Below, in pieces: positions 6,001 through 58,628 of a stretch of DNA of 64,000 nt. The position numbers and the translations under genes were made by a program. Under the pieces are notes generated by a model. It saw only the letters and a program-made list of their open reading frames with translations. It was not told where the DNA came from and did no database searches. This stretch comes from Diplonema papillatum. Lineage: Eukaryota > Euglenozoa > Diplonemea > Diplonemida > Diplonemidae. Each line of letters opens with the position of its first letter. Position 1 is the stretch's first letter. The stretch is from contig JAPJBO010001032.1 in assembly GCA_030068145.1 (NCBI GenBank), positions 1 to 64,000 of the forward strand, read 5' to 3'.

Positions 6001-7626
6001 CACGCTTCCTCCCCGCAGCCGAGTCTGCGCTGAACAAATCCGCAGCCCGGCCCAGCCCTGTGGTCACGATGTTCCCACCTTGCAGGAAGTTGTCCTCGTG
6101 CCATATCAAATCACCGGTCAACTCCGAGCGCTTGCCGGAAAAGCTGCCTGACGCGCCGACTCCTGCCGGGGTCTGAATCGCGTTTTTAGCGGGAGTTCCA
6201 CTAAACTGGATAAAAGCCAGCCGCATGCCGCCATTGGCTGCCGTCGACTGCTTTCCGACGGCACTGCCCTCGCTGGTCAATGGAAGCGCGGTGACCCAGT
6301 CACGCAGGGTTTCGATGATGGCATAAAACCCTTTGGGGTGGCGCGCGAAAGCTCCGGACAGCGAAACGCTCCCGCTGAGGAGGACGGTGATGTCCATGGC
6401 AGGGCACGTGCCGAACTCTTCTCCAACGCAGCGGCCTTGTGATCCGAGGGCAACCCAGGCGCACGTTTTTTCTTGCTCGCAGGCGCACCGTTCGTCGACA
6501 ATCGAGCAGTCTTTGTCAACACAAGCCCCGGCATTCCACATGCACACGTCCTCGACCAAGCACTCTCTCTCGGTCTCGAGCAACGGGCATCGGCGCAGCA
6601 CGCACCCGGCGTCTGCGGAATCGACGCTGTACTCGCACGCCTCGTCACGGTTGCAGGATTTTTCACTTGGATACTCCACGCACGGAGCGACTGTGCACGG
6701 GTCCATATTACCGCCAACCCAAAGGCAAGCGGCATCGTCCGTACATTTAGAAGCATCGGTGTACTCACAGCGCAACAACGCGCAGTGTCCCATGACCAAG
6801 TCGACGGTATGAGGACCAGTCGTGCACGTGGTTGCGTCAGAGCCGTCTGCCGTTGTTCCGAAGCGCCAGGAGAGCGTTCGCTTGCTGGCATCGTCTGTTT
6901 GCGTGATGAAAGACAGACCGGCCAGCGCGGTCAAGAGGGAGCGCGAGGTGGCGGGCCCCATTTGCAGGACGCCCGTCTCCTTGTTGAAATTCAACGAAAC
7001 GTTGGCCGCTGAACACGTCGCGCACGCCAACGAGTCCTTTTCCGGAAGGTACCCCTTCACAAACTCAACACGTATCCCGGGTTGCGGGGCATCGCATGTG
7101 AAACAGCCAATGGTGAAGCATGTCACGTTCTCGAACGGGAAGATAGCAGTGGACATCTCGTATACTAAGGCGGCGGTGGCAGCTGACGGAGAGTACGATG
7201 ACCACACGCACGCCGCGTCTTCTTCGCAGACTGTCTTCTTGGCGGTGACGCAAGGTGTCTTGTAGCACATCGGGTCGCTTTCTTTGTCCCAGGTGCAGCC
7301 CGCCAGATCCTCAAGACACGGCTTCTCAGTGTCATGCAAACACGGCGCGACTGTACACACGGCTGCGCCTGCCACAGCATAGTCCGTCGAAGGAGCCGGG
7401 CACACACACACCCAATCGTCTCGGACGGATGCTGTTGTGTTGGGGTCGTAGCAGGTCTGCTGGCAATCAAGTGTGCCTGTTCTGCAGTTCTCGATGCATG
7501 TTTCAGCATTGGTGGTGCATTCGTCATACGTGGAGCAGTCCGCCGGTGCAAGCCGGCCTTTTCCTGTTAGCGGAGGGTAGCAGTGGCATTCCCAGTCGTT
7601 CAGGCTAAGCATGTCCTTGTTCGTTC
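1..7626 (-). CDS. Giant VWA/EGF-repeat protein, continuation after frameshift, open at left edge
   Basis: Minus-strand translation after the frameshift resumes in the middle of an EGF-like repeat (KDMLSLNDWECHC), and the spans I translated carry the same protein to position 1. The last EGF-like units are followed by CxW Cys-rich repeats and four further VWA-like domains at about 6,405-5,740, 4,885-4,230, 2,985-2,330 and 1,455-780. Two segments, near 7,150-6,850 and 3,750-3,450, have a cadherin-like pattern (GY..GKD.L, then L.ALA.L.F....DD.S.R...W.F). The metal-site motif is SGSVS, DGSSA, SGASA and DGGAS in the four VWA domains, so none keeps a perfect DxSxS. The frame opens just after a TGA at ~7,626, and a single missing or extra base would join it to the upstream part. 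It is either a broken gene or an assembly error. Together the two parts exceed 6,200 codons. Confidence 0.8.
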
Positions 7627-10600: not shown

Positions 10601-13600
10601 AGCGCGCACGTGTCCCCAAACTCGACACACTCGTCAATGGTGCACATCGCAACTGCCTCTCCGATAGCAGTCCCATTAGACCCGGGCGGGCACGTGCAAA
10701 CAAAGTCAGGCTGCACGTTGTTGCACGTGGTGTCTGCATCGTAGCAGCTTTGCCACGCGTCCGGACAGTCGCTGTACAGCAGACACTCATCGCAAACGCA
10801 CAACGCTGCTTTGGCGGTCGCGTCTCCAACCCCGGGCGAGGGACAGGTGCACGTCCAGTCCGAAAGGGAGTTGACATCCGTATCCGGATCTACGCAGGTC
10901 TGGTTCACTGAGGTGCACGCACCCTTCGAGCATGATGGGCAGACTGCAAGGCACTCGTCAACTACACAAGCCGGAGCTGGTGTCGCCGTGGACGCAAGCG
11001 TAGTGGACGGGAAAGGGCACTGGCACTGCCAGTCGTGCAGCGTGGTCAAATTTAAGTCTGTACACGTCTGACCCTCTATTTCGCACAAGTTTGGCTGGTT
11101 CGGGTATTCGTTCGTGATCGCGCATGTCGAGCAATTTGTCTCGCACTCGTTCACCTCGCAGAGAATGTCCGAACTGTTGACAGCCGTTTCTCCCTTGAAC
11201 GGAGTCACGCACGAGCACTCCCAATCACCCAATGAATGGATATCGGTATCCGGGTCCCAGCACAGGTGCCCCTTCGCGAGACACAGAAGCGCCTCGGGGT
11301 CTGTTTCACACTCACCTTGGTAAGAACAAAGCGTTGGTCCCGTTACTGTAGAGTTGTTCTCGAGGGCGGGTGGCGATATGCAGTTGCACTCCCAGTCGTC
11401 CAAGCTGAATACCTCGGTGTCGACGTCGACACATTCCTGGGTGTGGTTCAGGCATACGTTCTCGTTTTCAGGTACCGAGCACTCGTCGTACAAACAAAAG
11501 TCAACTGCGCTCGTTTTGTTCAAACCGAGCGAAGGAGAGGGGCAGCGGCACCACCAGTCATTAGTCGAAGAGGCAGTCGTATTCGGGTCATCGCACAGCT
11601 GCGATGCACCGGAGCATATGGTGTTGGCGCAGTGAGGGCAGGTCGTATTGCACTCGTTCAAAGTACAGTGGGACACACTGGTGAACGCATGTCCGACACT
11701 GGGCTCAGGACAGCGGCACAACCAGTCGGACAGCGACTTCCAGCTGGAATCCGGGTCCTCGCAGCTCTGCCCTGCGGTCGCACACAGGTCCTCTTCGCAG
11801 GATGCGCAGGTTTTCTCACACTCATTGATCTCACAGTGACTGATACCGGCTGTTGCGTTTCCTTCAAACGGAAGCGGGCACCAGCATACCCAGTCACTGT
11901 ACGTCTCCCAGTTCGGATCTTCGCACGTTTGGTTCGCACTGGCGCACGTGGCGTTGAAGCTCAGGCACTCGTCGTATGCGCATATGTCCGCGGCGCTCGC
12001 GACGGCTTTCTGCATCGCTGGAGGCACGCACGAGCAGATCCAGTCCGACAGAGATTCGGATCTGGGTTCCGGGTCGTAGCACGTTTGTCCTGCGTCTGTG
12101 CACGTTTGGTTCGAGCACGTGGCGCAAGTCACACTGCACTCGTCAAGTGGACAGTCTGCGAGGTTGTAAATCGCAGAAATAGTTGAAGGCGCTGGGCACG
12201 AACAAGCCCAGTCTTGTCTCGAGAGGGCGCTGATGTTGAGGTCGGTACACGTCTCCTCAACGGCACCGGTTTCACACATGCTGTTCTCGCACGTGCCGCA
12301 CGTGACCTCACACTCGTCAATGGTGCATTCTGCCAACTCCATGGTGCCTCTTCCGGACAACGGGTCGTTGCAGACGCATTCCCAGTTGTAATGTGCAGCT
12401 TGATCTAAGTCTTCACACGTCTGGTTACCCCTTGTGCACGTCGAGTTGTGGATCGTGCACTCATCAATTGAGCACGAAACAACCGCAGCAGCGGTTTGCG
12501 TGTAGTTCGCAGGAGCAGCGCACCTGCAGAACCAATCGGACAACGAGCTAGAGGATGGACCAGGGTCTGTGCACGTTTGATCGCCGTCGCCACGAACACA
12601 GGTACCGTTGGCGCATGTTGCGCACATGGTGTCTTCACATTCGTTGAGGGGACACGAGGCGAGGTTGGTGTAGCCCGTGTTGTTCGAAGGTGCTTGGCAT
12701 GCACAGATCCAGTCGGATTGAGAGTCCGAGCTGTGGTCCGGATCATGGCAGATCTGAACGGGGTACGCTGATGAGCACATGTCGCGCTCGCACGTCTGAC
12801 AGTTCTCCTCGCATTCGTCGATGGTACAATTCACAGCACTGCCAGTCGCGTGTCCTGACAACGGCCAAACGCACCTGCACATCCAGTCATCAGTCACGGA
12901 CTCATCCGGATCCACGCACTCCTGCCCTGCCACCATGCAGATCATGTTGTAACGGGAAATGTCACACTCGTTTGTATCGCACGTTGCCGCTGCCGCTGCA
13001 GTAGCAGTCGCGTTCGATGGGAACGGGCAACTGCAGACCCAGTCAGACAGAGAGCTGGTCATCGCGACAGGGTCACTGCAGTTCTGCCCGCTCTGGGCAC
13101 ACGTTCCATTCGCACAGGTTGAACATCCGTCGACGATGCACTCGTCTCTTGGGCAATCCGCTTTGTTGACTGTGGCAAATCGTGTCGAAGGGAATGGACA
13201 CGTACACGTCCAATCCGACAGTGACAGCGAGCTGTTGTTTGGGTCATCGCACGTTTCGATCGGGTCCCCCGTCGAGCACAGGCCTTCCTCGCACGATTCG
13301 CAGCTCGATACGCACTCGTCAACAAAGCAAGCTGCCACCTTCGACGTTTCTTCTCCGCTCAAAGGAGAACGGCACGCACACATCCAATCGTGCGGAATAG
13401 ATGCGTTGACGTCATAACAAGTTTGGTTTGCAGCCTCGCACGTAGGAGCGTGGATTTCACACTCGTCTCTGTCGCACGAGGCAACAGCAGCAGCTTGCTC
13501 AGTCGCATTCGACGGGTACTGGCAAGTGCAATTCCAGTCTGAAAGAGAGCTCGTCATCGGGAAAGGGTCATAGCAGGTCTGCGATGCATTCGCGCAAGCG

Positions 13601-15440
13601 TCTTGCTCGCAAGAAGGGCAAATCGCATCGCACTCGTCCAATGGGCAGTCTGCCAAGTTCTGTGTCGCTGCATTGAACGAGGGTGACGGGCAGGTACACG
13701 TCCAGTCAGATGTCGAGAACTCGCTGTGGTCGGGATCACTGCACGTCTGCGGCAGCACGCCGGTGTCGCACTTGCCGTTCTCACACGTGCTGCATGTTGT
13801 GTTACACTCGTCGATTGCACAGTCCGCGATACCGTTGAGCTCGCTCCCGCTCAGCGGGCTTCTGCACACGCACAGCCAGTCAAACCCTATTGAATGGTTG
13901 GGGTCATGGCAATCCTGATTGGCGTCGTTGCACGTTTCATTGTGCAGTGTGCACTCATCGATGTCGCAACTCTGCACTGGTGCGGTCAGCTGCGTGTAGT
14001 TCGCGGGAGCATCGCAAGCACAGACCCAGTTGGACAAGGACTTGGACATGGGTATCGGGTCTGAGCACGACTGATTATTCGCTGAGCAGGTGGCACCTGC
14101 GCATGTTGGGCAGGCTTCCTTGCACTCGTCCAGTGGGCAGTTAGCTACGCTTTTCGTTGCATACAGAGTGGATGGAGCCGGGCAAGTACACGTCCAGTCG
14201 CCTGTCGAAAGCTCGCTGTGGTCCGGGTCGTTGCAGGTCTGAGAAACAGGACCAGAGTCGCAGGCACCTTTCTCGCATGAGTCGCATGTTTTGTCGCACT
14301 CGTCAATCGTACAATTGGCCGCTTCTGTCATAGCCGAACCGTTTAATGGAGCAACACAAGTGCACTGCCAATCGTCTGGCTTGTTTTCGTCCAGGTCTGT
14401 ACACGTTTGCTGCCTGTTCTGACACGTGTTGTGCAGCTCGCATTCGTCCTGCGAGCACGAAGCAACGTCACCTCCCGTTCGGGTTTTCGAGGAGGGATAC
14501 GGGCACACGCACATCCAGTCCCATCTTGAATTGAGCGTCGGGTTCGGGTCGCTGCATGTCTGTCCCAAGTGTCCCTTGGCACACCGGCCCTGTTCACAGG
14601 TCGTGGTGCAGTCCTCCGTGCATTCGTCGAAGGGACAGTTGACTACGCCCCCGCGCGCGGAAGCCGATGGATCGTTGGGACAGACGCAGCGCCAGTCTCC
14701 AGTGGATGACGCGTTTTGGTCAGGGTCAAAGCAGGTCTGCGGCGGCCAAGTACTTTGACACACGCCGTTTTCACACCCGGTGCAAGTTGCCTCGCACTCG
14801 TTCAGAATACACACCGCGGCCGCCATTGCGGCTTGCCCGTCCCCTGGGGGTTTACACTCGCAGTACCAGTCGTTGTACACGCTGTCGTCGGGTTCCACGC
14901 AGACCTGATCCACGTCAGTGCAGGTTCCGTTGTACTCGAGGCACTCGTCAAATAGGCATTGGTCGACGACAGCGCCTATCTCATACATCACTGAGGGCTC
15001 CGGGCAAAGGCAAGCCCAGTCACTCGAATTGGTGTCGTCCGGGTCGTTGCAACCCTGACCGGCCGTTGCGCAAAGCCCGTTTTCGCAGTGGTCGCACGTT
15101 ACGTTGCATTCGTTGATAGCGCACGTTGCGACTTTGCCGATGGCCGCACCTTCAAACGGAGACCGGCACCTGCAGCCCCAATCTTCCGTGGACGTCGGTG
15201 CCGAGTTGTGGTCGAAACAGTCTTGGTCCTTCTTCGCACACGCGCCATTCTCGCACGTGCTGCAACTCGCGAGGCACTCGTTCAATACGCAGACGGCTTT
15301 AGCTTGAGTCGGGGAAGTGTACGGGTCTCGCGTCAGCGGCGCGACGCACTCACAGTACCAGTCGTCAGTACACGGTGAGGGGTCGGGGTCCACGCATTGT
15401 TGCCCGTTGCTTTTACAAATAATATCCCCCGTGGATCCTG
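7375..15440 (-). repeat. Coding array of about 48 EGF-like repeats
   Basis: I counted about 48 units by their DEC/NEC signature. Most are 45-56 residues. Two kinds recur: one with a paired C-x-x-C after DEC (for example TC..CENG.C), and one with a longer spacing (DEC.LHN.TC). Each carries a QxCxDP motif and a DWxCxC motif. The DEC opening is reminiscent of calcium-binding EGF domains, but the internal DP..DW signature is distinctive. Repeats differ enough at DNA level that this is an old expansion. Confidence 0.8.
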
Positions 15441-18400
15441 TGGCGCACTGGTCGATCACGCACAGAGTTCCTTTCCAAGAACACTTGTCCGGCTCTGTTT
15501 CACAATGTCTCTTGTTCGCCGCCAGGTCGGCCTCGTCGTACTTGCAATCGCAAACCGTATCCGGGATGTTTTCACAGTGAACGTTGGTCCAAGAGCATTC
15601 CATGTTGTTCTCGGCATGGCAGTCAGCTGCTGTGCAATGTTCAAGGCAAGGAGAGGTAGTGCAGGTCTTGGTAGACGTAGACCAGAAGCAACCGCGGTCT
15701 TTTTTGCACGTGGCTTCCTGAAGGTAGAACATGCACGGAAGGTGTTTGTTGATCGTCGTTCCAGGAACGATGTGCTCGATATTCGAACCCCACTCGTGAA
15801 CAGGATCGCAGAACTTATGCAGAAGGTCCGGCAGCTCATCAAGATTCAAGTCTGTAAAGTGCTTGCTTTGGTCAGCCGAAGTCAGCTTCTTCAACGATGC
15901 GCTCGCGTCGACGTCCACTTTGGTTGCGGTGGCCTGTCTGCGTACAACAATTCCGTACCTGTTCACTCTCAAAAAGTCCATGTTGTCGATCACATCCTTG
16001 GTATCGTCAGTGTCGAGAATCTGCTGGTCCGTGACAATGATCAGGATGCGCTCGACTCCGTCGTCAGGAGGTGAGTCCTTCCAGTCACGCTCGTTGAAAT
16101 TCTTGTAAGCGAGCTTGAGGGCAGGGAGGATCTTGTGGTCCCCGCCGACAGGGTTGTCCTCGTGCCATGTTAGGTCACTATCCAACTGAGCGAATGTGCC
16201 TGAAAGTTGGCCTTTGGCAGCAGGTGCGGTCGCGATCTTTGCCGCACTTCCGTCCGTTCCGTATTGAATGAGAGAAACACGGGCTGCTTCAGTGTTCCCA
16301 GATTGGGTTGTCACGCCTGCTGGGGCCTTAGTCAAGGGTATCTCCCGGACCCAGTTTCGGATGTGTTCGGTGAAAGCCAAGTAGCCATTCGGGTGATGTT
16401 CGAACTTGTAGCTCATCGACGTGGAGCCGGGGAAGATGAGGACGATGTCCATCGCAGGGCACAGTCCGTATTTAGCCGCAACGCACTGTTCCTCGCTGCC
16501 GCTCTTCCAGTAACAGTTGTCGTTCCGCATGCACGCGCATTGAGTCAAGTGGAACTGGCAGTGGAGGTCGACGCACCCCTTTGGTGACTCGTTCCACATG
16601 CAGTCTTTGTTCGCTTCGCACTTGGCGTTGGTCGTCAACGTGTAGCACTCCTTGATCTGACAGGTCGCAGGTGTGGTTTTCAAGTCCCAGTGGCACTCCG
16701 CTCGCGCGTCGCAACACTCGTCGTTGTCGTTCTCGGAGCAGGTTTTGAACGCACATTTCGAATTAACCCACTGACACCGAGCATCAGCCTTGCACACCGT
16801 TGAAGAGGTCCACGCTTTACAGCCAGCGTGCATGCATTGAAGCTCTGGTCCCCCGCATGGGTCCTTCTGCCAGGCACATTCTTTGCCATTTCCGTCCTTT
16901 ACACAGTCTGGTTTCGTGTCTGGTCTCGTGCACGGGCGAACAACGCACTTCTTCGACACCCACGAGCAGTCCTCATGGTCCGACTTGCAATCCAGCTCAT
17001 TGTCGTTCATCGTGCAAGGAGCCGGTTCGCACAGCTGGGCCGTCCCGTCCCAGACACAGTTTTGGGATGAAGCTATGCAGAGGGCATACGTGTCGTGTGC
17101 GCAGCGCGTTTCTTTCAAGCAGCCCTGCGTCGTGTCCCACACGCAATAATTGTCGGTATTAAGCATACACGCAGTTTTCTCGCACTCCGTGATGCAGACG
17201 GAGTCCAAACAGGCCTGGCTAGACGAGCTCCAGTGGCATCCCCGGTCCACCGCACATTTGTACGCATTGGTGTACTGTTTGCACGGTAGATGGTATCCAA
17301 CCTGGTCATTATCTTGAACGCCAGAACCAACAATGTATTTGCCGAATGTAGAGGACGGTTCGCAGATTTTCTTGAAGAGGTTGGCAGCAACTGCGTCGTG
17401 TGTCATTGAGATGGACAATGATGCGCTTGATGTCAGCTTCCTCAATTGAACGGCGGCGTTGTTCTCAGCCGAACTTTGAGACGAACTCCTTCTGAGCACG
17501 ATTCCAAAGCGAGTAACACCTTGGCTGTTTAACGTGTTCACCTCGCTCGTAGTAGACGCGTAGTCTGCCATGCCAGAGTCCACGAAGATGAACATGACCT
17601 TCTTCCGGTTTTTGGCGGCCTTGTTGAAGACGTTACCGGCTTCTCGCATTCCCTTCTCAATCCTGTTCCCTTTGTTCAGCGGGTTTGCTCTGTGATAGGA
17701 TATGTCTCCTGATAATTCACTGTAGACTCCCGACAGAGCTCTGACCCTCGCTTCGGTTGTTCCTGGTATGGTGTCATACCGTGCGCAATATTTCTTACCA
17801 TACCACTTCCTCTTCCACTGGCCACACTGCGTGTACGGCTCCTGACCGGAGAACTGGATGGTACCCAAACGGATGCCGCCGCGGGTCAGTCCGCTGTCGG
17901 TGACACCTCTTTTCTCACCGGTGAGCGGGATTTGGTTGGCCCAGTCTTTCAAGAGGTCCCAGAAGGCGTACCAGCCGTTTGAATGTCTATAGAACGCTCC
18001 TCTAACAGACGAGGAGGCGTCCACGGCCACAACAACTTCTAAAGCAGGGCATTGTCCGTACTCTTCGTCCACGCAACGCTTTTCTCTGATATGCCAGTAA
18101 CAGCCTTGTGCATTTCTACACGAGCATTCCCCGAGACCGTTGCAGTTCATCTCCGTACAGTATCCCTTGCCGGCGTCCCACATGCACCCAGACTTTTTGT
18201 TGCAGAGCGACTCTGTCTTGTAGTTCCTCGTGCAAGGTTTTTCGACGCACACTGGTGGCGAGACACCTGTGTTCCACTGGCAATCCTCGCTCCGGCAACA
18301 GCTTTCGGTCGGGTACTTTCCGCATATAGAACGTTGACACTTCAAGCCGGAAGACCACTGGCACTGTGAGTTCTTTTCGCACTCCTTCTGCGTTGTGGCG

Positions 18401-18681
18401 AAGCAAGCATGGCGGACACACTTGTGATCGTCGTTCTTTGGGCAGAGACTTTCCCATTCACAGCTTTTGTCCGCATTACAGTTCAGCTCGTCCGTGAACT
18501 TGCACGGCTCTACACCGCAGCTTCCTGGAACACCAAGGGTCGGCTGCGTCCACACGCACCCGTTCGTATCCCCAATGCACGCCGACTCATCGTCGTTCAA
18601 CAGGCAAGGCGCTGCAACAGCTTCGGTGTCCCTCAGGTGTCCCAACAACACCAACAGCCCCATTCGGCTGATGAGCTTCAT
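7600..18681 (-). CDS. Giant secreted VWA/EGF-repeat protein, N-terminal part
   Basis: The frame is 3,693 codons with no intron. It starts at an ATG in an AAAATG context, followed by a signal-peptide-like start (MKLISRMGLLVLLGHL, then a small-residue cleavage region). Residues ~26-210 are Cys-rich repeats of about 40 residues with a C-x-W core. VWA-like domain 1 (~210-445) has a DASSS metal-site motif, and VWA-like domain 2 (~740-965) has PGSTS instead. Further CxW repeats follow. From ~1080 to the end there are about 48 EGF-like repeats with the pattern C..xGQxCxDP...DWxCxCPxP...C..DEC. This is a modular extracellular protein, probably an adhesin or matrix component; that role is inferred from architecture, not shown. 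The frame ends at a stop only because of a frameshift near 7,625, and the same protein continues in another frame to the left edge. No membrane segment is seen; the C terminus lies outside the window. Confidence 0.85.
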   Translation of the reverse strand: MKLISRMGLLVLLGHLRDTEAVAAPCLLNDDESACIGDTNGCVWTQPTLGVPGSCGVEPCKFTDELNCNADKSCEWESLCPKNDDHKCVRHACFATTQKECEKNSQCQWSSGLKCQRSICGKYPTESCCRSEDCQWNTGVSPPVCVEKPCTRNYKTESLCNKKSGCMWDAGKGYCTEMNCNGLGECSCRNAQGCYWHIREKRCVDEEYGQCPALEVVVAVDASSSVRGAFYRHSNGWYAFWDLLKDWANQIPLTGEKRGVTDSGLTRGGIRLGTIQFSGQEPYTQCGQWKRKWYGKKYCARYDTIPGTTEARVRALSGVYSELSGDISYHRANPLNKGNRIEKGMREAGNVFNKAAKNRKKVMFIFVDSGMADYASTTSEVNTLNSQGVTRFGIVLRRSSSQSSAENNAAVQLRKLTSSASLSISMTHDAVAANLFKKICEPSSTFGKYIVGSGVQDNDQVGYHLPCKQYTNAYKCAVDRGCHWSSSSQACLDSVCITECEKTACMLNTDNYCVWDTTQGCLKETRCAHDTYALCIASSQNCVWDGTAQLCEPAPCTMNDNELDCKSDHEDCSWVSKKCVVRPCTRPDTKPDCVKDGNGKECAWQKDPCGGPELQCMHAGCKAWTSSTVCKADARCQWVNSKCAFKTCSENDNDECCDARAECHWDLKTTPATCQIKECYTLTTNAKCEANKDCMWNESPKGCVDLHCQFHLTQCACMRNDNCYWKSGSEEQCVAAKYGLCPAMDIVLIFPGSTSMSYKFEHHPNGYLAFTEHIRNWVREIPLTKAPAGVTTQSGNTEAARVSLIQYGTDGSAAKIATAPAAKGQLSGTFAQLDSDLTWHEDNPVGGDHKILPALKLAYKNFNERDWKDSPPDDGVERILIIVTDQQILDTDDTKDVIDNMDFLRVNRYGIVVRRQATATKVDVDASASLKKLTSADQSKHFTDLNLDELPDLLHKFCDPVHEWGSNIEHIVPGTTINKHLPCMFYLQEATCKKDRGCFWSTSTKTCTTSPCLEHCTAADCHAENNMECSWTNVHCENIPDTVCDCKYDEADLAANKRHCETEPDKCSWKGTLCVIDQCATGSTGDIICKSNGQQCVDPDPSPCTDDWYCECVAPLTRDPYTSPTQAKAVCVLNECLASCSTCENGACAKKDQDCFDHNSAPTSTEDWGCRCRSPFEGAAIGKVATCAINECNVTCDHCENGLCATAGQGCNDPDDTNSSDWACLCPEPSVMYEIGAVVDQCLFDECLEYNGTCTDVDQVCVEPDDSVYNDWYCECKPPGDGQAAMAAAVCILNECEATCTGCENGVCQSTWPPQTCFDPDQNASSTGDWRCVCPNDPSASARGGVVNCPFDECTEDCTTTCEQGRCAKGHLGQTCSDPNPTLNSRWDWMCVCPYPSSKTRTGGDVASCSQDECELHNTCQNRQQTCTDLDENKPDDWQCTCVAPLNGSAMTEAANCTIDECDKTCDSCEKGACDSGPVSQTCNDPDHSELSTGDWTCTCPAPSTLYATKSVANCPLDECKEACPTCAGATCSANNQSCSDPIPMSKSLSNWVCACDAPANYTQLTAPVQSCDIDECTLHNETCNDANQDCHDPNHSIGFDWLCVCRSPLSGSELNGIADCAIDECNTTCSTCENGKCDTGVLPQTCSDPDHSEFSTSDWTCTCPSPSFNAATQNLADCPLDECDAICPSCEQDACANASQTCYDPFPMTSSLSDWNCTCQYPSNATEQAAAVASCDRDECEIHAPTCEAANQTCYDVNASIPHDWMCACRSPLSGEETSKVAACFVDECVSSCESCEEGLCSTGDPIETCDDPNNSSLSLSDWTCTCPFPSTRFATVNKADCPRDECIVDGCSTCANGTCAQSGQNCSDPVAMTSSLSDWVCSCPFPSNATATAAAAATCDTNECDISRYNMICMVAGQECVDPDESVTDDWMCRCVWPLSGHATGSAVNCTIDECEENCQTCERDMCSSAYPVQICHDPDHSSDSQSDWICACQAPSNNTGYTNLASCPLNECEDTMCATCANGTCVRGDGDQTCTDPGPSSSSLSDWFCRCAAPANYTQTAAAVVSCSIDECTIHNSTCTRGNQTCEDLDQAAHYNWECVCNDPLSGRGTMELAECTIDECEVTCGTCENSMCETGAVEETCTDLNISALSRQDWACSCPAPSTISAIYNLADCPLDECSVTCATCSNQTCTDAGQTCYDPEPRSESLSDWICSCVPPAMQKAVASAADICAYDECLSFNATCASANQTCEDPNWETYSDWVCWCPLPFEGNATAGISHCEINECEKTCASCEEDLCATAGQSCEDPDSSWKSLSDWLCRCPEPSVGHAFTSVSHCTLNECNTTCPHCANTICSGASQLCDDPNTTASSTNDWWCRCPSPSLGLNKTSAVDFCLYDECSVPENENVCLNHTQECVDVDTEVFSLDDWECNCISPPALENNSTVTGPTLCSYQGECETDPEALLCLAKGHLCWDPDTDIHSLGDWECSCVTPFKGETAVNSSDILCEVNECETNCSTCAITNEYPNQPNLCEIEGQTCTDLNLTTLHDWQCQCPFPSTTLASTATPAPACVVDECLAVCPSCSKGACTSVNQTCVDPDTDVNSLSDWTCTCPSPGVGDATAKAALCVCDECLLYSDCPDAWQSCYDADTTCNNVQPDFVCTCPPGSNGTAIGEAVAMCTIDECVEFGDTCALSGQTCVDDDKMTNGTWVCHCPMPANGSALMAVSSCTLDECLKDCKHCENDTCASAKQDCTDPDTRLESSHDWFCECRFPGVGKATARAASCDCDECVTDVICSSANQTCNDGNLTCADGGAKDYTCTCQDPFTGVAEAAVAVCKWDECAEHELACTNKKQNCYDPDLVNLDTWQCVCLPNATGSALMQAAECSLDECAAICDSCENSACENAGQKCNDPDIAITSLGDWTCECNVGTGKATQAPADCKCDECLDTLECDLADQICTDSNHTCGGGDFTCSCKLPWQGVGTAGAAVCEMDECKQNGYVCQAMNQTCTDYELTTENTWSCTCPLPSHGTSNMSAAACVLDECEESCPHCENGACEEEAQLCIDMDNSSQSRRDWMCLCQEPGVGNATAKPAECVCNECLLYSTCTNAGQDCNDLETSCSKLQKPNYVCTCRAPSFGSANNVAADCQLDECQDNQLCGGQKCEDPDFLKNGDWFCKCPPPSHGSAVGEPATCILNECNETCSHCANGTCTQQTDKQTCHDPDTNATSTSDWTCTCSIGVGSATAKAATCVCDECSIGINACQPFGQDCRDNVQTCNTAPDFQCICPSPYTGSAVGTNATCTLDECKQYASICSAVGQDCIDSDHLVLNNWICQCKSPSEGEGRMEAAYCVLDECAKECETCSNNTCTDADQICSEGNTSSLMTSDWTCSCKFPGVGSAVTNAAVCVCDECLMFDVCQSEGQSCFDADKSCDKLDDFTCTCALPAVGTGTASAAVCLTNECKQYNGTCLTKGQTCFDPNQTVADDWECHCPEPAVGTEVMGPATCFLNECNTSCTHCANGTCDSVGQTCNDPNMEVDYTNDWTCTCVAPAKGEAMANAAECVCNECETDDTCLAANQSCEDVNTTCGEVPDFVCSCDSPAYGSAVGEAAECLIDECTTVLACESMQQICLDENRTADANWICMCPNGTTGEPGQQGATTCLLDECTASCPTCAEDTCSNMGQACVERTRTCLA

Positions 18682-39287: not shown

Positions 39288-40305
<1,018 letters not shown>

Positions 40306-43656: not shown

Positions 43657-44253
<597 letters not shown>

Positions 44254-47605: not shown

Positions 47606-47762
47606 CTAACAAGTGATGTAACAAGTGGTCACTTGCTATATAACAAGTGCCACTTGTTATATAACAAGTGATCACTTGTAATATAACAAGTAATTGCTTG
47701 TTATATAACAAGTGGTTGCTTGTTATATAACAAGTGATTGCTTGTTATAACAAGTGTTTGGT
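47606..47762. repeat. Palindrome array, left arm
   Basis: About seven units of the ACTTGTTATATAACAAGT type separated by 2-4 bases. Variants are GCTTGTTATATAACAAGT and ACTTGCTATATAACAAGT. Confidence 0.85.
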
Positions 47763-49404: not shown

Positions 49405-49531
49405 AAAGGAAATACCCCGAAACTCCCCGATATTTTTGTCTGGACCAGGTGGAGCCTTGTGTCTTGCAGATCACTGATTTTCTCTCGTAGGTAGGTGCAA
49501 ACCCCAGGTTCCTTATGAAATTGCAACCAAA

Positions 49532-49702
49532 CACTTGTTATAACAAGCAATCACTTGTTATATAACAAGCAATCACTTGTTATATAACAAGCAATCACTT
49601 GTTATATAACAAGTGGCACTTGTTATATAACAAGTGACACTTGTTATACATTTTCACTTGTTAGGTCACTTGTTATATAACAAGTGATTGTGCATGACAA
49701 GT
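49532..49702. repeat. Palindrome array, right arm
   Basis: The same palindrome in about eight units. It is the inverted counterpart of the left array. Confidence 0.85.
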
Positions 49703-49711
49703 GCGTCGTGT

Positions 49712-50660
49712 CCCCCCCCCGTGCATAAGATGGATGAATAATTCGGTTTTTGGCGGTATCCATCTTAATCAAGGGGGGTATCCATCTTAAACACGGGGCA
49801 CTGTAGACTACAGTGTAGTCGCCTTGCTCACCCCCGTGGGATTGGCATTCTCGCCCGTTATCCTCTTAATCAAGGGGGGTTGGCTATCCATCTTATGCAC
49901 AGGGGGGGTGTAGGTAATGGGGAAATTAGCACCACTTTAATAGCATAATGGGGAAATTAGCAAACTTTAATAGCATAATGGGGAATTACCCGTCTTCTAG
50001 TCAGAGAACCGACCATGTCTCGAAATGCCGGGGGAAGCCTAAAACAGGAAAAGCCCTTTGTTTTTGATGCCGTGCCAGTCATCACAGCACACCGTAAAAC
50101 TTGGATACGTTTTTTTTTCCCCCCCCCGACGACACTGTCACGACAGTTAGTGTCAGACTAGCTCACCCGAAGGCAGTTGGTTTCTTTAGGCAGGTTTCCT
50201 CTACCGGCGGAAGTTGTTTGGGTTAGCAATTTTTTTTTTCTTTTTGGAACAGCCAAAAGCAGGAGCCAAGCTTCACGTGTTCGGCGGTACTGCAGAGCCA
50301 CGGGCCTACGGGTCAAGTGGCTACCGATTTCTCAAACTAAAGCATCAAGGCGTGGCGCACCTTGGGGCTTGGCGCTCGCGCTGAACACAAGCTCGTCGAG
50401 ACGGTCAGCCACACAGAGAGAGCAGAGCGGACGGGGTTGTAGCACTGTGCTGCCTCCGACTCAAGCTTTGCAAGCTGTGGTTGACCGTCACGTTCCTGGA
50501 CCAGGAGCGGCCTTTTTCTTTTTCTTTTTTCTTTCTTCTTCTCTTTGGAACAGCATACCACGCTGGACATGTCAGTACAAAAAAGAAAGTTGGCAGCGTT
50601 GGAAGTAAGATACAAAACAGGTCCTTCGCACACACAATAAAACACGTCTGCTAAAAATAT
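49712..50660. other. Gene-free stretch
   Basis: No gene is seen. Short repeats of ATCCATCTTA and TCAAGGGGGGT lie at 49,755-49,900, and the 33-bp repeat block lies at 49,915-49,990. Near 50,540-50,640 a sequence (GGCAGCGTTGGAA, then ACAGGTCCTTCGCACAC) has a relative at 54,484-54,540. Confidence 0.5.
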
Positions 50661-51115
50661 GGTACGATGCCAAACCCCCCCCCCCCCTTTGCACTAATAA
50701 ATTTTTTGATGTCACCCCATACTGGCCCCGAAACCCCTTGTGTGGCCCAAAACGGTTCCCAAACGGTTTTTGGCGGGCTGAGTCGAGGTAAAGGGGTCTC
50801 TGAAGGTCCACGAATAGGCCCAGGTGGGCCCAGGTGGGCCCCGGAGCGGGCACTCAGTGCGAGGGGGTGCCCCCAAAATGGGGTCATTTTCAAAGCCTCG
50901 CCACTTCTCAAGCTAGTCAAACACCTTCTGGCCTCCAGCGGGAAACCCAGACTACACAACGACAAGATCGGCTGTGTTCAGCCGTAGATAGCCACCAGCG
51001 GGTCCTCTTGAAGCCGAAGAATGTTCTCAGGGGTCTCAGATAGCCCTACTTGGGCAGGCACACCTTGTAAATTGAGTGGGTGCAGCAGGTGCACCCTGCC
51101 TAGAATCCGGCTTTA
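50661..51115 (+). repeat. Terminal inverted repeat, left arm of copy 1
   Basis: It pairs with 51,645-52,135. It lacks a ~35-base GC-rich part (near GGGCAGGCAC) that is present in the corresponding arm of copy 2. Confidence 0.85.
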
Positions 51116-51175
51116 CCAGCAATACGAATTAAGAATACAGGTTGACCCAGGAAAACGGAAACTAAGAGAGGGAAA

Positions 51176-51520
51176 ATGCCAAAGATCACGGGTCTGGAGT
51201 TCGTGGAGTCATCGGTGAGAGCAATGCAGAAGTTGTCGCCGTTTCATGAGGAAACGAGACGTGGTCAGTCCATGCAGAGACGACTCGTAGCCAGCAGGAC
51301 CTTTTGCGAAAAGGTCTCTGGTGAGGACCTGATCGGTTTCTTTCTCGCCCTAATGACAGAGGAGGAGAACGTTGACATCTGGAAGCGCCTTTCTGGTAGG
51401 CTTTCAGAAGCCTTCAACAGACTTGACGACGAGGCGAGCCGGCGACGCATCGTGAGCGGTTTGGACTGGGCACGTGCCCGGTACAGGGCTGTTGGAATGG
51501 TCGTGGGTGACAATCTCTGA
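51176..51520 (+). CDS. Small unrecognised protein of the inverted-repeat element, copy 1
   Basis: 114 residues from an ATG in a GAAAATGCC context to TGA. The protein (MPKITGLEFVESSVRAMQKL ... ARARYRAVGMVVGDNL) looks mostly helical, charged, with one Cys and no signal peptide or membrane segment. It differs from the 57.3 kb copy at a single residue that I can find (Arg versus Ser in EAFNRLDDE). It is the only gene in the element. No family is recognised. Possible roles are a tiny DNA-binding or regulatory protein needed for mobilisation, or a passenger. Confidence 0.7.
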   Translation: MPKITGLEFVESSVRAMQKLSPFHEETRRGQSMQRRLVASRTFCEKVSGEDLIGFFLALMTEEENVDIWKRLSGRLSEAFNRLDDEASRRRIVSGLDWARARYRAVGMVVGDNL

Positions 51521-51644
51521 AAGAACCGGGGAAAGGCTGCCGAGATTGGCGTTGGCGGGGGAGTCCTCATCTTGGTTCTTTTGCATTTTTCCACCTTATA
51601 TTCTGCGTTTTCCTTGTAAGCACTGTGTTCTCAAAAGCGGGTGA

Positions 51645-52088
51645 AGCCGGATTCTAGGCAGGGTGCACTTGCATACCACACATTCTAAGCGTGTGCCTGC
51701 CCACTGCTGGCGCTGCACACATGGGGCTAACTGTGACCCCCGAGAGCACTCTTCGGCTTCAAGAGGACCCGCTGGTGGCTATCTACGGCTGAACACAGCC
51801 GATCTTGTCGTTTTGAAGTCTGGGTTTCCCGCTGGAGGCCAGAAAGTGTTTGACTAGCTTGAGTAGTGGCGAAGCCCGAAAATGACCCCATTTTGGGGGG
51901 CTCTCCCCCTCGCGCTGAGTGCCCGCTCCGGGGCCCACCTGGGCCCACCTGGGCCTATTCGTGGGCCTTCAGAGACCCCTTTACCTCGACTCAGCCCGCC
52001 AAAAACCGTTTGGGAACCGTTTTGGGCCACACAAGTGGGGTTTCGGGGCCAGTATGGGGTGACATCAAAATTTTTTTATTAGTGCAAA

Positions 52089-52123
<35 letters not shown>

Positions 52124-52135
52124 TGGCATCGTCTC
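51645..52135 (-). repeat. Terminal inverted repeat, right arm of copy 1
   Basis: Inverted counterpart of the left arm, ending in a run of 33 G followed by TTTGGCATCGTCTC. Confidence 0.85.
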
Positions 52136-52167
52136 ATATGTCCGTTCTAATGCCTTTGCGCTTGCAC

Positions 52168-52295
52168 AACAATTAATTGTAAACACGAAAGAGAACGCTG
52201 GCAGCGTGTTTGGGAGAAGATTAGCCTACCGATCATATTCACTCACTATCACTCACTAACAGGCTAATCCTCCCCCGGCACGTACAAACAAAACC
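52168..52295 (-). repeat. Inverted repeat arm, right
   Basis: Inverted copy of 46,010-46,140. The shared part includes AACGCTGGCAGCGTG and GGCTAATCCTCCCCCGGCAC. Confidence 0.75.
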
Positions 52296-52351
52296 ATGGC
52301 ACTAACTCGGACGGGTTAAGCAGCGCTGCCGGCTTATCCCTTGTCGCCTTT

Positions 52352-53083
52352 TATATCATGCAGGGTCAAAACCTTGTGTCTTTTTGGCAAATGGCCACCC
52401 ATTTTTTTCCGTAAAATTCTTGGGTTTTTTAGATTTTAAAATTTTGGAACAAACACTGTGGTGGTTTTTTGATGAAGTTTTCGTTGACCGCACTAGCCCA
52501 AATCCTGGACGTGGATTCAGGTGGCAAATTTGGCAAATGATCATGATCAGAAGGTCCTACTTGGGCGGTTCAGTTTCCTCACACATTGCATGTGGCTAAA
52601 AAAATACTCGAGGGACTGCCTTGTGCTCATTTCGAAGGAGGCTAGAGGGGGAGAAAACAATACAACTACAAAGTGGGTCTTTTTTGTTGAACGCTTACGC
52701 GCCCGGCTTCCGCGGTGCCCTCGACCTCGCGGGCGACCTTCAACACCGTCGAGAGACGGCGGTTGTTCGCGGTGAAGGAAAAAAGGGACGGGACATCAGT
52801 CCCGACCACCCTCTTCACCCAACTCACCGCGCCCGACCTGTCGAGTTGCTTCGGCATTTTTGTTGAACGCTTACGCCCGCCACTAAACCCAGGGTTACCT
52901 GTGTTTCGTGTGGGCTACAGCACATTTACCTCCTTTGATCTATCGCAACTGGCAGTCTCCTCAAGCATTTCCTACAAAGCAGGTGCTTATACAAAAAAAA
53001 TTCCAATTTTTTTTTTTGGGGGGCTATCGGCCCCGCGGCAGCGTTTAAAAAAAACGCAAGGTTTTGACCCTGCATGATATGTA
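52352..53083. mobile_element. Inverted-repeat-bounded segment with recombinase-element fragment
   Basis: ATATCATGCAGGGTCAAAAC at the left and its inverse at the right (53,060-53,083) bound the segment. Inside, 52,470-52,600 is an inverted copy of 30,013-30,130, the leader of the tyrosine-recombinase element. The minus strand at 52,857-52,666 encodes LDRSGAVSWVKRVVGTDVPS, homologous to the N terminus of the 30.1 kb ORF. TTTTGTTGAACGCTTACGC occurs twice (52,684 and 52,858). Confidence 0.5.
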
Positions 53084-53210
53084 GTTGGCTATCTGAATAG
53101 ACTAAAGACACAAGGTTTTGACCCTGCATGATATGTAGTTGGCTATCTGAATAGACTAAAGACACAAGGTTTTGACCCTGCATGATATGTAGTTGGCTAT
53201 CTGAATAGAC
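53058..53210 (+). repeat. 54-bp tandem repeat, ~3 units
   Basis: The unit starts CAAGGTTTTGACCCTGCATG and ends GAATAGACTAAAGACA. Units 1-3 are almost identical. The first 25 bases also form the inverted end of the segment to the left. Confidence 0.85.
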
Positions 53211-53244
53211 TACGTTATAGGGAATTGGAGAGTTTGACATACGA

Positions 53245-53643
53245 ATGGCAAACTCGTGGGTACCGAAGGTTGCAACTGCTCACCAGAAGAGTCAGATGAT
53301 GGCTGAAGTGCGCTACCGATACGGGCCCATTGTAGAAGACTTCAAGGCCAGTGTACCTGCCACGAGACCCGTGTCCTGTTTCTGTCTTGGACAGACTCCT
53401 CCCTGTGCCGAAGGACTCGAGACAGGTCCTACAGGTTGCCCATCAACTGCTGGTTCGCCTCGAGGCCCTAAGAATCCGCGTGTAACGAGTGTCGACGCAC
53501 CCGGCTTCGTGAAGTTCATTGCGGATGCCAGGAAACTGGAAGGAAACAATGCGAATAAGCAGTTCCACAGCCAGAAGGTGCCCACAGTGTGGCAGATGCG
53601 TCCAAAAGGATGGGCAAGCTCATCGAGCCAGTGCCAGCAGTAG
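53245..53643 (+). CDS. Hypothetical small ORF
   Basis: 132 codons starting MANSWVPKVATAHQKSQMMA, with a Pro/Gly-rich middle and ending in a Ser/Gln-rich tail. No domain is recognised and no copy is seen in the window. It begins ~35 bases after the 54-bp tandem repeat. It may be coding, but a chance frame cannot be excluded. Confidence 0.25.
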   Translation: MANSWVPKVATAHQKSQMMAEVRYRYGPIVEDFKASVPATRPVSCFCLGQTPPCAEGLETGPTGCPSTAGSPRGPKNPRVTSVDAPGFVKFIADARKLEGNNANKQFHSQKVPTVWQMRPKGWASSSSQCQQ

Positions 53644-55189
53644 CAGGGCCCATCGTCCCATGACCCCAGATTCCGGGCCAGGTACGGTCTCATAACACAA
53701 GGGGTTCTTCTTCGCCCCTCAGCCTCAGTCAATCGCAGTTAGATGGCTTTCCACACATACAGAGCACAGGCTCATCCGACTCGCTTGCAAGCAGCTCTCG
53801 TTTCCCTACCTTCCTTCCTATTGCGCCTGTGCAGCCGTAGTGCTGCACAGGTGCTCCAATGGGCATCGTCCGCACCACAGAATTGAAAGTCTTGTGACTT
53901 TTGTTGAAGGGTTCACATTTTCTTGCACGACCGTGCATCGTTCAAGGCATAGTTTCTTGCCACGCCAAAAAACAGCCAGCCCTCGGGCTGCCCCAACTAT
54001 GGTTGGCTGGGCACCTGGTATTGGCCGCCATTGGAGTCGTGTCTGCAGTTTGCAGGTAGTCCCAGGCGGGGACTTTTGCGTCCGAAATGACTCAAAAATT
54101 TCCGGGTGCCCGAAGTGGTCCAGGTGACCCAGCTCAGTCAGTTGCCTGTGACGGCGTTCATTGAGTTGTTTGAATTAGTTCACTTACAGTAGCTGCTGAT
54201 CTGCTGCGATGGTCTGCGGTTTCCAAAGCGGAGCGATGGAAACAAAATGGCGGAGCTGCGGACGAGTGCGGGGGAGGCTGATTTGATCCATGGTTTGCGC
54301 GAACTTCTGTTGAATAAGGATGATGCAGGTTGGGAGGTGTGCTGATTCCTGAGGGAGTTGAGGGAATGGTGATTGGGTCGGAGCGTATGGGGCTTTTTTT
54401 GTGTTTCGTGTTTTTTTTTTTTTCGAGGTTTCGCAAAAATTCGGGCGCGCGCGAGCGCGAGCCATAAAAAATAGTCAGCCCTTGGCAGCGTTGGAACCTG
54501 CCTTGTAAAGATACAACACAGGTCCTTTGCACACGTGCATCAACGCGCCTTTTCTTTTTTAAGACAGCTCAGCGGACTTCTGCTTCTCGAACGCCTCGCG
54601 GAGGAAATGATGACCCTCACAGTAGAGGGTGGAAATGGCACGGAACAGAAGAAGTGAAAATGTTGCACGACTCAGTTCAGAAACACAAGCGCGCAGGTTG
54701 ATACTGCCGGTTGAGGATGGCAGCAACGCATCGACCGCAGCCTGATCCCGTCTTCTTGGGGTATTCAAGAAAAAAGTGCCCCATTTTCCCCGGAAGCACA
54801 CGATTTCCCTATTTCCTTGATGTTGCTGACTACCGGGGATTCCTTGGTAGTCTGCCAGCTTTCGTTGCGCAGAACTGATCAAAAACACGCTCTATTTTAC
54901 GCACAGCCGTAAACACAATGCGTCCATGGCACGGCACAGCCGACACGCCTACTTTCTTCTTTTCCCCTAAGGTGGCCGGTTGGCCTTGTTTGTTTGCTTT
55001 TTTGTGTTGACGACGATTTTTAGACTGTTTCTTGTAGTAAGCGGTCGATTTTTTGAAGTCTCCGTTTGACTAGTGAGGCGAGGGGGAAGATTTTTGTGTG
55101 ACTCCAGATTCATGTATTTCTTGTTGCTTTTTGGGGTTGACGACGATTTTGTGTGACTCCAGATTCATGTATTTTCTTTTGTCGAAATG
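53644..55189. other. Gene-free stretch
   Basis: No convincing gene is seen. A direct repeat of GTGTGACTCCAGATTCATGT lies at 55,096 and 55,149. A partial third copy of direct repeat R lies at 55,020-55,090. A relative of the 50,560-50,640 sequence lies at 54,484-54,540. Confidence 0.5.
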
Positions 55190-56130
55190 CTCGGAAACAG
55201 GTGTGGCCCTAAAGCGTGAATGTAAATAGAGACTTCCCGCGAAATGAATTCTTTCTCGAGACTCGCCCAGCCCGAGGGCGAGTCGAGAGAAAAAAAGTGA
55301 TTCCAAGAGAACAAGTGGCTTTTAATTATGGTAAAGAATCGCATCCGGGAATAAATACATTTTTTGCACTTTTTTTTTGCACTTTTTTTGCACCAGCCTA
55401 CAGCGAAGGTAACAGGAAGTTTCTGGGCTTTCAGTCCACGGATGACATCCGCGCTATGACGGCAGGAACGCAAACAGACGCAACATGCTGTGTGGCTCGG
55501 TTCGATGGCTTCGTTCGATGAAGAAGTGGTCAGAGATGTTTCGTTACCAAGCTTGGAAGCCTCTGAAGGTCTTATCTTCATATTGGCAAGCGTTGACTCA
55601 ACGCCATCCGAGTTCTTGCTGGAACTTTCATTGACTCTCTCCCCTACTACTGTTGCACAGTGCGTTGCTCAGGGTAGTCGAAGGCCTGACAAACTTCCGG
55701 TTGGGGTGATGGTGATGATCTTAGCGGCAGCGCTGGTACAACCTCCTCAGCACAACCGACAGAAAGAAAGCGAAAGCGCGAAGTCCGATATTCCTCTGTC
55801 CAGAAATCTTTCACCCCAACACGGTACACCGCAACTCCATGGCACGGCATGAAGCAAGGGTTTGGATATTCTTCGGCACAAGTAGTGCAATCACGTGGTC
55901 GAGTTTGGTTCGCCTTTTTCATTACGTTTGCTCGTGAGCACACGGAAGTCTTGAGCAGAACGTAGTCAGTCAAACAAGCCAAAGGACGAAGTTCTGGGTG
56001 TAGCCTACGAACCAAAACGGGTGCAAAAGACAGGCTGAAAAAGTGCAAAAAAAAAACGTAAATAGGATCTTGGATTCTGCCCAAAAAGTGCGTAAATAGG
56101 GCCACACGTGCTCGGAAACAGCATTTTCAT
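55190..56130. mobile_element. Possible foldback element
   Basis: GTGTGGCCCTAAAGCG / TAAATAGGGCCACACGTG near the ends and TTTTTGCACTTTTTTTTGCA / GTGCAAAAAAAAAACG further in form imperfect inverted pairs. The interior has a 120-codon plus-strand frame (55,490-55,852, starting MWLGSMASFDEEVVRD) with no recognised domain. Confidence 0.3.
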
Positions 56131-56690
56131 CCGTCTGAGACTGGGAGGCCATTTTCGTTGCGGTTGATGTTCCTGCAGGTGGGACCGTCCTGCTTCTTTT
56201 TAGACCGGTATTTCCAAGTCACGGTGGACTTGCGAGCGACAATGGGACGGCTTTGATTGTTGAGCGAAGTCAGCATTTTGATGCATGTGTCTGCGTCATA
56301 CAAGGAAGGGTTTCGGTGTTAAACTTCGGATGTCCGGTCATGCACTGAATAGTTCGCATAGGCTGAGACGATCCAGTGGGACGGGGCATCCATAAATGTC
56401 TTTCGCCCTCTAAAGAATCTTTGGCAAGAGGGGATGGGATAGACGTGGTTGAAGTTTGAAAGTTCACTCCCTGGTATCAAGGATCCAGGTGACCTTTGAC
56501 AAATGGGTTTCAAGAAAAGTGTGAGTGTTGGTCGTTCTCCTTTCGTGAAAATCGTGAAAAGACAGAAAGCTTGATCGCCGTCTTGGCTGCGCTGTTCAAA
56601 CAGCTTCAACCTCTGTCCAGGAGCGGATTTCGGTGCTTCTTTGTGTCGTTTCAACGGTCCAAACAAAAGTTAAAACCCCTGCGCTCCTCG
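56110..56690 (+). repeat. Dispersed 0.57 kb repeat, copy 1
   Basis: GGAAACAGCATTTTCATCC through GGTCCAAACAAAAGTTA. A second copy, with several small insertions and deletions, lies at 62,213-62,775 in the same orientation. It encodes nothing recognisable. Confidence 0.8.
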
Positions 56691-56714
56691 AGGAGGCTTC
56701 TCTAAGAGATATAT

Positions 56715-58209
56715 GAGACGATGCCAAACCCCCCCCCCCCCCCTTTGCACTAATAAAAAAAATTTTGATGTCACCCCATACTGGCCCCGAAACCCCACTT
56801 GTGTGGCCCAAAACGGTTCCCAAACGGTTTTTGGCGGGCTGAGTCGAGGTAAAGGGGTCTCTGAAGGCCCACGAATAGGCCCAGGTGGGCCCAGGTGGGC
56901 CCCGGAGCGGGCACTCAGCGCGAGGGGGAGAGCCCCCCAAAATGGGGTCATTTTCGGGCCTCGCCACTACTCAAGCTAGTCAAACACTTTCTGGCCTCCA
57001 GCGGGAAACCCAGACTTCAAAACGACAAGATCGGCTGTGTTCAGCCGTAGATAGCCACCAGCGGGTCCTCTTGAAGCCGAAGAGTGCTCTCGGGGGTCAC
57101 AGTTAGCCCCATGTGTGCAGCGCCAGCAGTGGGCAGGCACACGCTTAGAATGTGTGGTATGCAAGTGCACCCTGCCTAGAATCCGGCTTCACCCGCTTTT
57201 GAGAACACAGTGCTTACAAGGAAAACGCAGAATATAAGGTGGAAAAATGCAAAAGAACCAAGATGAGGACTCCCCCGCCAACGCCAATCTCGGCAGCCTT
57301 TCCCCGGTTCTTTCAGAGATTGTCACCCACGACCATTCCAACAGCCCTGTACCGGGCACGTGCCCAGTCCAAACCGCTCACGATGCGTCGCCGGCTCGCC
57401 TCGTCGTCAAGGCTGTTGAAGGCTTCTGAAAGCCTACCAGAAAGGCGCTTCCAGATGTCAACGTTCTCCTCCTCTGTCATTAGGGCGAGAAAGAAACCGA
57501 TCAGGTCCTCACCAGAGACCTTTTCGCAAAAGGTCCTGCTGGCTACGAGTCGTCTCTGCATGGACTGACCACGTCTCGTTTCCTCATGAAACGGCGACAA
57601 CTTCTGCATTGCTCTCACCGATGACTCCACGAACTCCAGACCCGTGATCTTTGGCATTTTCCCTCTCTTAGTTTCCGTTTTCCTGGGTCAACCTGTATTC
57701 TTAATTAGTATTGCTGGTAAAGCCGGATTCTAGGCAGGGTGCACCTGCTGCACCCACTCTATTTACAAGGTGTGCCTGCCCACCGCAGGCGCTGCAGGCG
57801 GGGTGGCCAAGTAGGGCTATCTGAGACCCCTGAGAACATTCTTCGGCTTCAAGAGGACCCGCTGGTGGCTATCTACAGCGGAACACAGCCGATCTTGTCG
57901 TTGTGTAGTCTGGGTTTCCCGCTGGAGGCCAGAAGGTGTTTGACTAGCTTGAGAAGTGGCGAGGCTTTGAAAATGACCCCATTTTGGGGGCACCCCCCCT
58001 CGCACTGAGTGCCCGCTCCGGGGCCCACCTGGGCCCACCTGGGCCTATTCGTGGGCCTTCAGAGACCCCTTTACCTCGACTCAGCCCGCCAAAAACCGTT
58101 TGGGAACCGTTTTGGGCCACACAAGTGGGGTTTCGGGGCCAGTATGGGGTGGCATCAAATTTTTTTTATTAGTGCAAAGGGGGGGGGGGGGGGGGGTTGG
58201 CATCGTACC
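56715..58209 (-). mobile_element. 1.49 kb element with long inverted repeats and a 114-residue ORF, copy 2
   Basis: Reverse-oriented copy of 50,661-52,135. The ends are GAGACGATGCC (left) and inverted GGTACGATGCC (right), again with ATAT outside both ends. Homopolymers are 15 C (left) and 18 G (right). Each arm matches the same arm of copy 1 better than it matches the other arm of its own copy, so the whole unit was duplicated rather than arms being homogenised. The central ORF is intact. Confidence 0.85.
57313..57657 (-). CDS. Small unrecognised protein of the inverted-repeat element, copy 2
   Basis: 114 codons, near-identical to the ORF at 51,176-51,520. The one difference I find is Ser in place of Arg (EAFNSLDDE). 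The start context and stop are the same. Such close identity of DNA and protein implies recent movement or conversion, and an intact frame in both copies implies either youth or selection. No family is recognised. Confidence 0.7.
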   Translation of the reverse strand: MPKITGLEFVESSVRAMQKLSPFHEETRRGQSMQRRLVASRTFCEKVSGEDLIGFFLALMTEEENVDIWKRLSGRLSEAFNSLDDEASRRRIVSGLDWARARYRAVGMVVGDNL

Positions 58210-58628
58210 ATATAGAATCGTATTAGATGGTGGTAAAGTCACTGTGCTCTTTTTCTCGTATGCCTGATATGCCTTTCAACACTCAAGAATTAACGCCCAT
58301 CGAAGCCCACACCAAAGCATGTCCAAGGCTATTGGTAGCTCCATCTGGATTGGCCCTCTACAAAAAGAAACTGGAGATCAATGTTCTTTGTCGTCAGGTT
58401 GGCATCGCTTCTTCCACTCTGGCTTTGATTGCTGGTTCTACTTCCGTTCTCTTGTTTCCGACGATCCCGCGAGGGCGTACGGATTGGTGTATTTTCCTTT
58501 GTCAAAAAAATGCTCGGAAATGGGGTGGCCATGGTCATCGGGTCGACGGGGGGAATCACAAATTGTCATGGGTCAACTTTTAGAATCCCAAAAAATCAAT
58601 CCAAATCACAAGAAATCGTCGTCTCGTT

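Follow-up and report, generated by a model that had tools for sequence, protein, structure and literature searches.

We find that two near-identical units in the stretch of DNA analysed here (positions 1 to 64,000 of contig JAPJBO010001032.1; hereafter the window, 64,000 nt) are non-autonomous, internally deleted derivatives, similar to miniature inverted-repeat transposable elements, that share their ends and target-site duplications with a longer coding element. Their parent is very probably a cut-and-paste DNA transposon of the DDE/D type, of which the window units are shortened, non-autonomous copies. The features of cut-and-paste transposons that we observe are terminal inverted repeats, a target-site duplication of fixed length with corresponding empty sites, and a full-length relative with a predicted RNase H-like core.

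The two units, 1475 bp (copy 1) and 1495 bp (copy 2) long, lie 4.6 kb apart and are one and the same unit in opposite orientation, as an earlier note on this DNA had concluded: a single 1027-nt stretch is complementary between them at 100% (as rounded by the alignment tool), and their central 516 alignment columns hold 2 differing positions. The unit tips read GGTACGATGCC and GAGACGATGCC and contain ACGATGCC, with ATAT at both sides of both copies. The pattern GRKACGATGCC occurs exactly in the window only at the four unit tips (12 occurrences with up to one mismatch, versus a shuffled mean of 3.5), in line with the 11-base ends described earlier. Also as described, the C/G homopolymer tracts measure 13 and 33 bases in copy 1 and 15 and 18 in copy 2, and each unit holds a 114-aa open reading frame (ORF), the two differing solely at residue 82 (R/S), and encodes no transposase. 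The long inverted arms are present too, but they are alignable over about 510-560 bp, a little more than the 450-490 bases first proposed, as imperfect inverted repeats of 85-86% identity. The features of the two copies are as follows (window positions, strand, description).

50657..50660, no strand: left ATAT target-site duplication of copy 1; related empty sites have one ATAT
50661..52135, + strand: copy 1, non-autonomous deletion derivative, 1475 bp, 5' tip GGT, 3' tip CTC
50661..51120 (inner border approximate), + strand: 5' terminal inverted arm of copy 1, with a 13-C tract after ACGATGCCAAA
51176..51520, + strand: 114-aa ORF of copy 1, equivalent to residues 1-114 of a 625-aa transposase-like protein, stopped by a TGA in place of the TGG of the full-length gene
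51558..51565 (approximate), + strand: internal deletion site of copy 1, element position 899/904; 1504 bp of family A (positions 924-2427) absent
51637..52135 (inner border approximate), - strand: 3' terminal inverted arm of copy 1, with a 33-G tract
52136..52139, no strand: right ATAT target-site duplication of copy 1
56711..56714, no strand: left ATAT target-site duplication of copy 2; empty site at locus L061
56715..58209, - strand: copy 2, the same derivative as copy 1 in reverse, 1495 bp
57313..57657, - strand: 114-aa ORF of copy 2, with S82
58210..58213, no strand: right ATAT target-site duplication of copy 2

The earlier note had suggested searching the genome for the ends and the protein and looking for a full-length relative with a transposase, and all of these were found, the relative having a transposase-like gene. 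In the host genome (271 Mb in 2910 contigs, presumably eukaryotic), exact ATAT-plus-tip matches number 1426, versus 21 for a reversed control pattern, and the 114-aa protein is matched in 150/150 of the rows scored from 495 candidates, 19 of them at 100%. Sixteen of these rows lie within an open frame of 641 codons, at loci occupied by an element of about 2.98 kb (family A) that has tips and arms like those of the window units and an intron-free 625-aa ORF. The 114-aa protein is 97% identical to residues 1-114 of this 625-aa protein. In the lineage of the window units, d1, a TGA replaces tryptophan codon 115 and 1504 bp are missing about 40 bp further on; a d1-type copy whose ends were not found (L020) retains TGG at codon 115. 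Twenty-two d1 copies have the same layout, and the d1 junction segment is matched at 100% identity in 40/40 scored rows (317 candidates). Both family A and d1 have spread recently. Sixteen family A copies are identical across all 625 residues (70 scored of 913 candidates), and eight full-length copies have 0 variable sites in the 1878-nt ORF plus 232 untranslated flanking nt, with 21 variable sites in 776 arm positions.

The insertion sites support movement of the unit as a whole. The left flank of copy 1 is part of another repeat. When its flanks were joined and searched against the genome, 29 of 40 scored rows (2237 candidates) cross the join unbroken with a single ATAT, 9 match the right flank only and 2 are the window itself. 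In the three empty rows that were read, the site is TAAAAATATGTCCGTTCT, where the occupied site reads TAAAAATAT, the element, and ATATGTCCGTTCT. For copy 2, one of five matches (C1512, L061) spans the join, as GAGATATATAGAATCG. The empty sites that the earlier note had recommended seeking thus exist for both copies, and ATAT is the target-site duplication, with one ATAT in the related empty sites of each. The empty sites of the two copies differ, and we therefore conclude that they were separate insertion events. For a wider survey we took 52 loci or window copies, picked by protein match and not randomly, some with nested or composite ends; setting aside nine without a recognisable end and L004, which is the window itself, left 42. 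Identical 4-bp flanks are found in 40/42 elements (ATAT in 39/42) and a 5-bp match in 0/42, and the base preceding the duplication is T in 31/42. At L032 both sides carry AGAT (ATCT in the other reading), demonstrating that the four bases are duplicated and are not part of the tips. Together with the 22 like-built copies, these duplications and empty sites uphold the earlier claim of movement as a unit.

A predicted structural model of the 625-aa protein contains an RNase H-like core that superposes on retroviral integrase cores, and catalysis would reside there. D309, D389 and D423 are invariant in a five-row alignment; the third acid is uncertain (predicted local distance difference test score, pLDDT, ~54), with D425 and E/D436 as alternatives. 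According to the model, all core residues fall in the part deleted from the window units. The structure predicted for the N-terminus is helical, with a low mean pLDDT of 48.7.

Several observations weigh against deriving the window units from a family A-like DDE/D transposon. The model of the 625-aa protein has a mean pLDDT of 51.8, with ~54 in the stretch of the presumed third acid (D423/D425), and the protein has no sequence match above cut-off in Pfam, PHROGs, NCBIfam or PDB. Two surveyed elements (L037 and L048) lack matching flanks, and 7/42 also match at 6 bp, because they are located in AT runs. Relative to the gene, d1 carries its tips the other way round from family A, and its 5' part is only 92% identical to family A; given these two differences, the sampled family A is a cousin of d1 and not its direct parent.

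Below cut-off, Pfam returned YL1 (E 0.027) for the 625-aa protein (P0003) and NEW1_HB (0.011) and HemeBinding_Shp (0.12) for the 114-aa protein (P0001). PHROGs and NCBIfam gave weak matches only, and PDB sequence searches gave none for P0003 or alignment A2 and only P450cin (E 0.36) for P0001. In viral or prokaryotic collections, we found no match in phage tblastn searches with P0001 and P0003, in IMG/VR with P0003 and A2, or in GTDB contigs with A2; an Rfam scan of the window gave 0 matches. The proteins of two further families, B and C, and of a more distant one, E, match Pfam DUF7869 weakly near a GGHGK.D motif (E 0.14, 0.083 and 0.19, respectively), all under the curated cut-off, whereas family A has no match. 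Across this genome DUF7869 was matched at one place at E 0.87 and nowhere above cut-off, and a search of one literature collection found no paper with DUF7869. Within the partial texts available, that search found no description of the transposon family, which we do not take to mean that it is unpublished; matches for ACGATGCCAAA with "transposon" were titles on rice elements and cattle. The accessible portion of a 2025 Ectocarpus survey (PMC12477816) does not mention such an element. The brown-alga marker EsV-1-7 was matched neither in this genome nor in any of the control genomes.

We propose that the 625-aa protein, or a close relative outside the sample, would recognise both arms and tips and excise the element, which would reinsert at ATAT with a 4-bp stagger. 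The d1 units, which lack about 1.5 kb of the gene and have TGA as codon 115, would then move in trans, presumably mobilised by family A. The Repbase rule, as described, groups non-autonomous elements by duplication length and the first 11 bases (PMC4455052), and by this rule d1 is joined to family A. In five further family A derivatives (L043, L044, L045, L049 and L050), the junctions show an overlap of 1-7 bp four times and a gap of a single base once, as might be expected from interrupted gap repair.

Most simply, the 114-aa ORF is a passenger remnant that is intact since the copies are very young. An alternative that we regard as unlikely is a KP-like regulator: by analogy, the 114-aa N-terminal fragment may be made and inhibit the full-length transposase in trans, its ORF being kept by selection. 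The ORF is an in-frame N-terminal piece, unbroken in the majority of the 150 rows scored, and there is a precedent in the internally deleted P elements, described as encoding a 207-aa KP protein that inhibits the full-length transposase in trans (PMC7776569). Between family A and d1, 342 nt hold 4 synonymous and 2-3 nonsynonymous differences (P ~0.04 for 4/6, taking an assumed synonymous expectation of 25%). However, all four synonymous differences from family A are common to d1 and a sister lineage, d2 (three copies read, L046-L048), whose deletion is nearly the same and which has the same TGA plus a stop at codon 12; the changes therefore predate or accompany the split and are uninformative on the truncated protein. 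The differences found in d2 alone are all nonsynonymous (the S12 stop, M33L and, in some copies, K70M and D67A), and d2 spread despite its broken frame. An internal TGA also occurs in 10/150 scored rows of the 114-aa protein (three read). The case that other copies lack the ORF, which the earlier note had named as evidence against itself, is thus partly borne out. The 22 d1 copies have 1 variable site in 345 nt of ORF versus 2 in 200 nt of adjoining single-copy non-coding sequence; the neighbour is as invariant as the ORF, which indicates that the intact ORF reflects the youth of the copies, and selecting d1 copies by protein match favours intact ORFs. On these two grounds we set aside variation within the family as an argument for selection on the truncated ORF, although such selection may exist. 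What we take to be a helix-turn-helix follows residue 115 of the 625-aa protein and is missing from the fragment, which also counts against a regulator. We favour an inert 114-aa fragment over KP-like action.

The earlier note knew no family of mobile units with long arms and one small helical protein; a separate kind of that sort is not supported here. That this is a free-standing transposon of a new kind, moved by its own 114-aa protein, is highly improbable: the unit is abundant and the ORF is the only one in it with a clear relative, but that relative is a longer element with a transposase-like gene, of which the 114 aa are the non-catalytic N-terminus, the predicted core residues lying in the deleted part. 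Self-mobilisation is further rejected by the spread of d2 with its frame broken at codon 12. A single segmental duplication in inverted orientation, suggested by a near-identical pair 4.6 kb apart in opposite orientation and raised by the earlier note as a case of shared flanks, is refuted by the two different empty sites and is scarcely credible, since the flanks differ, each copy has its own ATAT duplications, and many more copies lie elsewhere in the genome.

Taking the window units as deleted DDE/D derivatives, we compared the group with known transposons. The duplication agrees with that of Sola2, described as AT-rich and 4 bp long (AWWT; ATAT, AAAT, ATTT), and Sola2 also has derivatives missing most of the transposase region (PMC3627910). 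ATAT on both sides in 39/42 elements fits AWWT, and the sole other duplication, AGAT (ATCT), falls outside it. The Sola2 terminal repeats are given as 12-21 bp (PMC3627910), in contrast to about 500 bp with C/G tracts here. The likeness lies in the target-site duplication and the deletion derivatives, and we do not claim membership in Sola2. Deleted copies keeping an N-terminal piece of the transposase are described for P elements, but zebrafish P-like elements have an 8-bp duplication (PMC7776569), unlike the 4 bp here. Galileo/Foldback-like elements share long inverted arms, deletion derivatives, arm exchange and chimeras (PMC3573991), whereas Galileo has 7-bp duplications and a P-type transposase and our elements 4 bp and an unrelated protein. 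KP-type repressors bind element DNA and inhibit the transposase; a like role of the 114-aa protein would be by analogy, and Pfam detects no THAP domain. The Drosophila P element duplicates 8 bp; the P superfamily, with 7-8 bp and a THAP domain, does not fit 4 bp without THAP in Pfam scans. MULE/Mutator elements duplicate 8-11 bp, which excludes them here, and the ATAT duplication excludes Kolobok and piggyBac, both of which duplicate TTAA.

Across the 22 d1 copies, 81 of 815 arm positions vary, versus 3 of 545 in the centre. Where the majority-sequence arms differ, 33/40 minor alleles are the base of the opposite arm (P ~2e-10, one third expected), which points to exchange between arms. A further 68 d1 minor alleles, far above the centre, are at positions where the arms agree, for which arm-to-arm exchange is no explanation. 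In family A the GAG tip precedes the gene and the ACC (GGT) tip follows it; in d1 the order is GGT, gene, CTC (GAG). This would be accounted for if the interior had been inverted between the arms. The tract behind ACGATGCCAAA is C in family A and G in a family B end and at the two ends of a family C copy; it is kept, in opposite strand sense, between families about 50% identical in protein. A bolder and improbable reading is that the parents are an undescribed DDE/D lineage or superfamily whose terminal signal includes a C/G tract at a fixed place behind ACGATGCCAAA, perhaps a G-rich structural element in synapsis, with the abundant 114-aa derivatives as a convergent KP-like brake. Six loci (L001, L017, L024, L034, L043 and L047) have the ACGATGCCAAA-C-tract tip with other interiors (AGGCATCTTGTTAAGAACC, TTATGGAAGCTGC), and these interiors suggest further non-autonomous families with the same ends.

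The window units are standard non-autonomous transposons, and the parent group is of more interest. With a 166-aa catalytic query, all 138/138 candidates were scored and, by our count, comprise at least 23 family A cores, 32 of family B (78% to the query) and 29 of family C (99-100% over the full query length); what remains is a single remoter row (C770, 54%) followed by fragments. At the protein level, B and C share 50-51% identity with A. Tip positions were taken from the first 100 of the 1426 ATAT-plus-tip places. Four family B copies lie on fully listed contigs (C9, C10, C25 and C26). In three of them a GGT tip stands exactly 566 bp upstream of the ORF match; among the places listed, none of the four has an exact 3' tip and one also lacks the GGT tip. 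The family C copy on C26 has exact tips at both ends. Near its C-terminus the family E protein (L054, on C770) resembles a CCHC zinc knuckle (zf-CCHC, E 0.016, below cut-off), with none reported for A, B or C. In three families many full-length copies are identical or nearly so, which implies very recent activity. Their transposase is only weakly linked to one uncharacterised domain, and their terminal signal includes a homopolymer tract of variable length. If active, the group would be a candidate for a new tool and a test case for homopolymer tracts at transposon ends and for truncated transposases as brakes.

Elsewhere in the window, positions 39288-40305 and 43776-44253 are pure trinucleotide arrays (about 339 GTA and 159 AGT copies, 100% identity), adjoined by ORFs of 942 and 952 aa with RT_RNaseH matches below cut-off (E 0.08 and 0.004). 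An unbroken 3693-aa ORF (7600-18681, - strand) has a weak VWA_2 match only (E 0.011, below cut-off). Tandem 22-bp units of the palindromic AACAAGTGATCACTTGTT type lie at 47619-47756 and 49524-49648, and a third tandem array, of 54-bp units, at 53050-53212.

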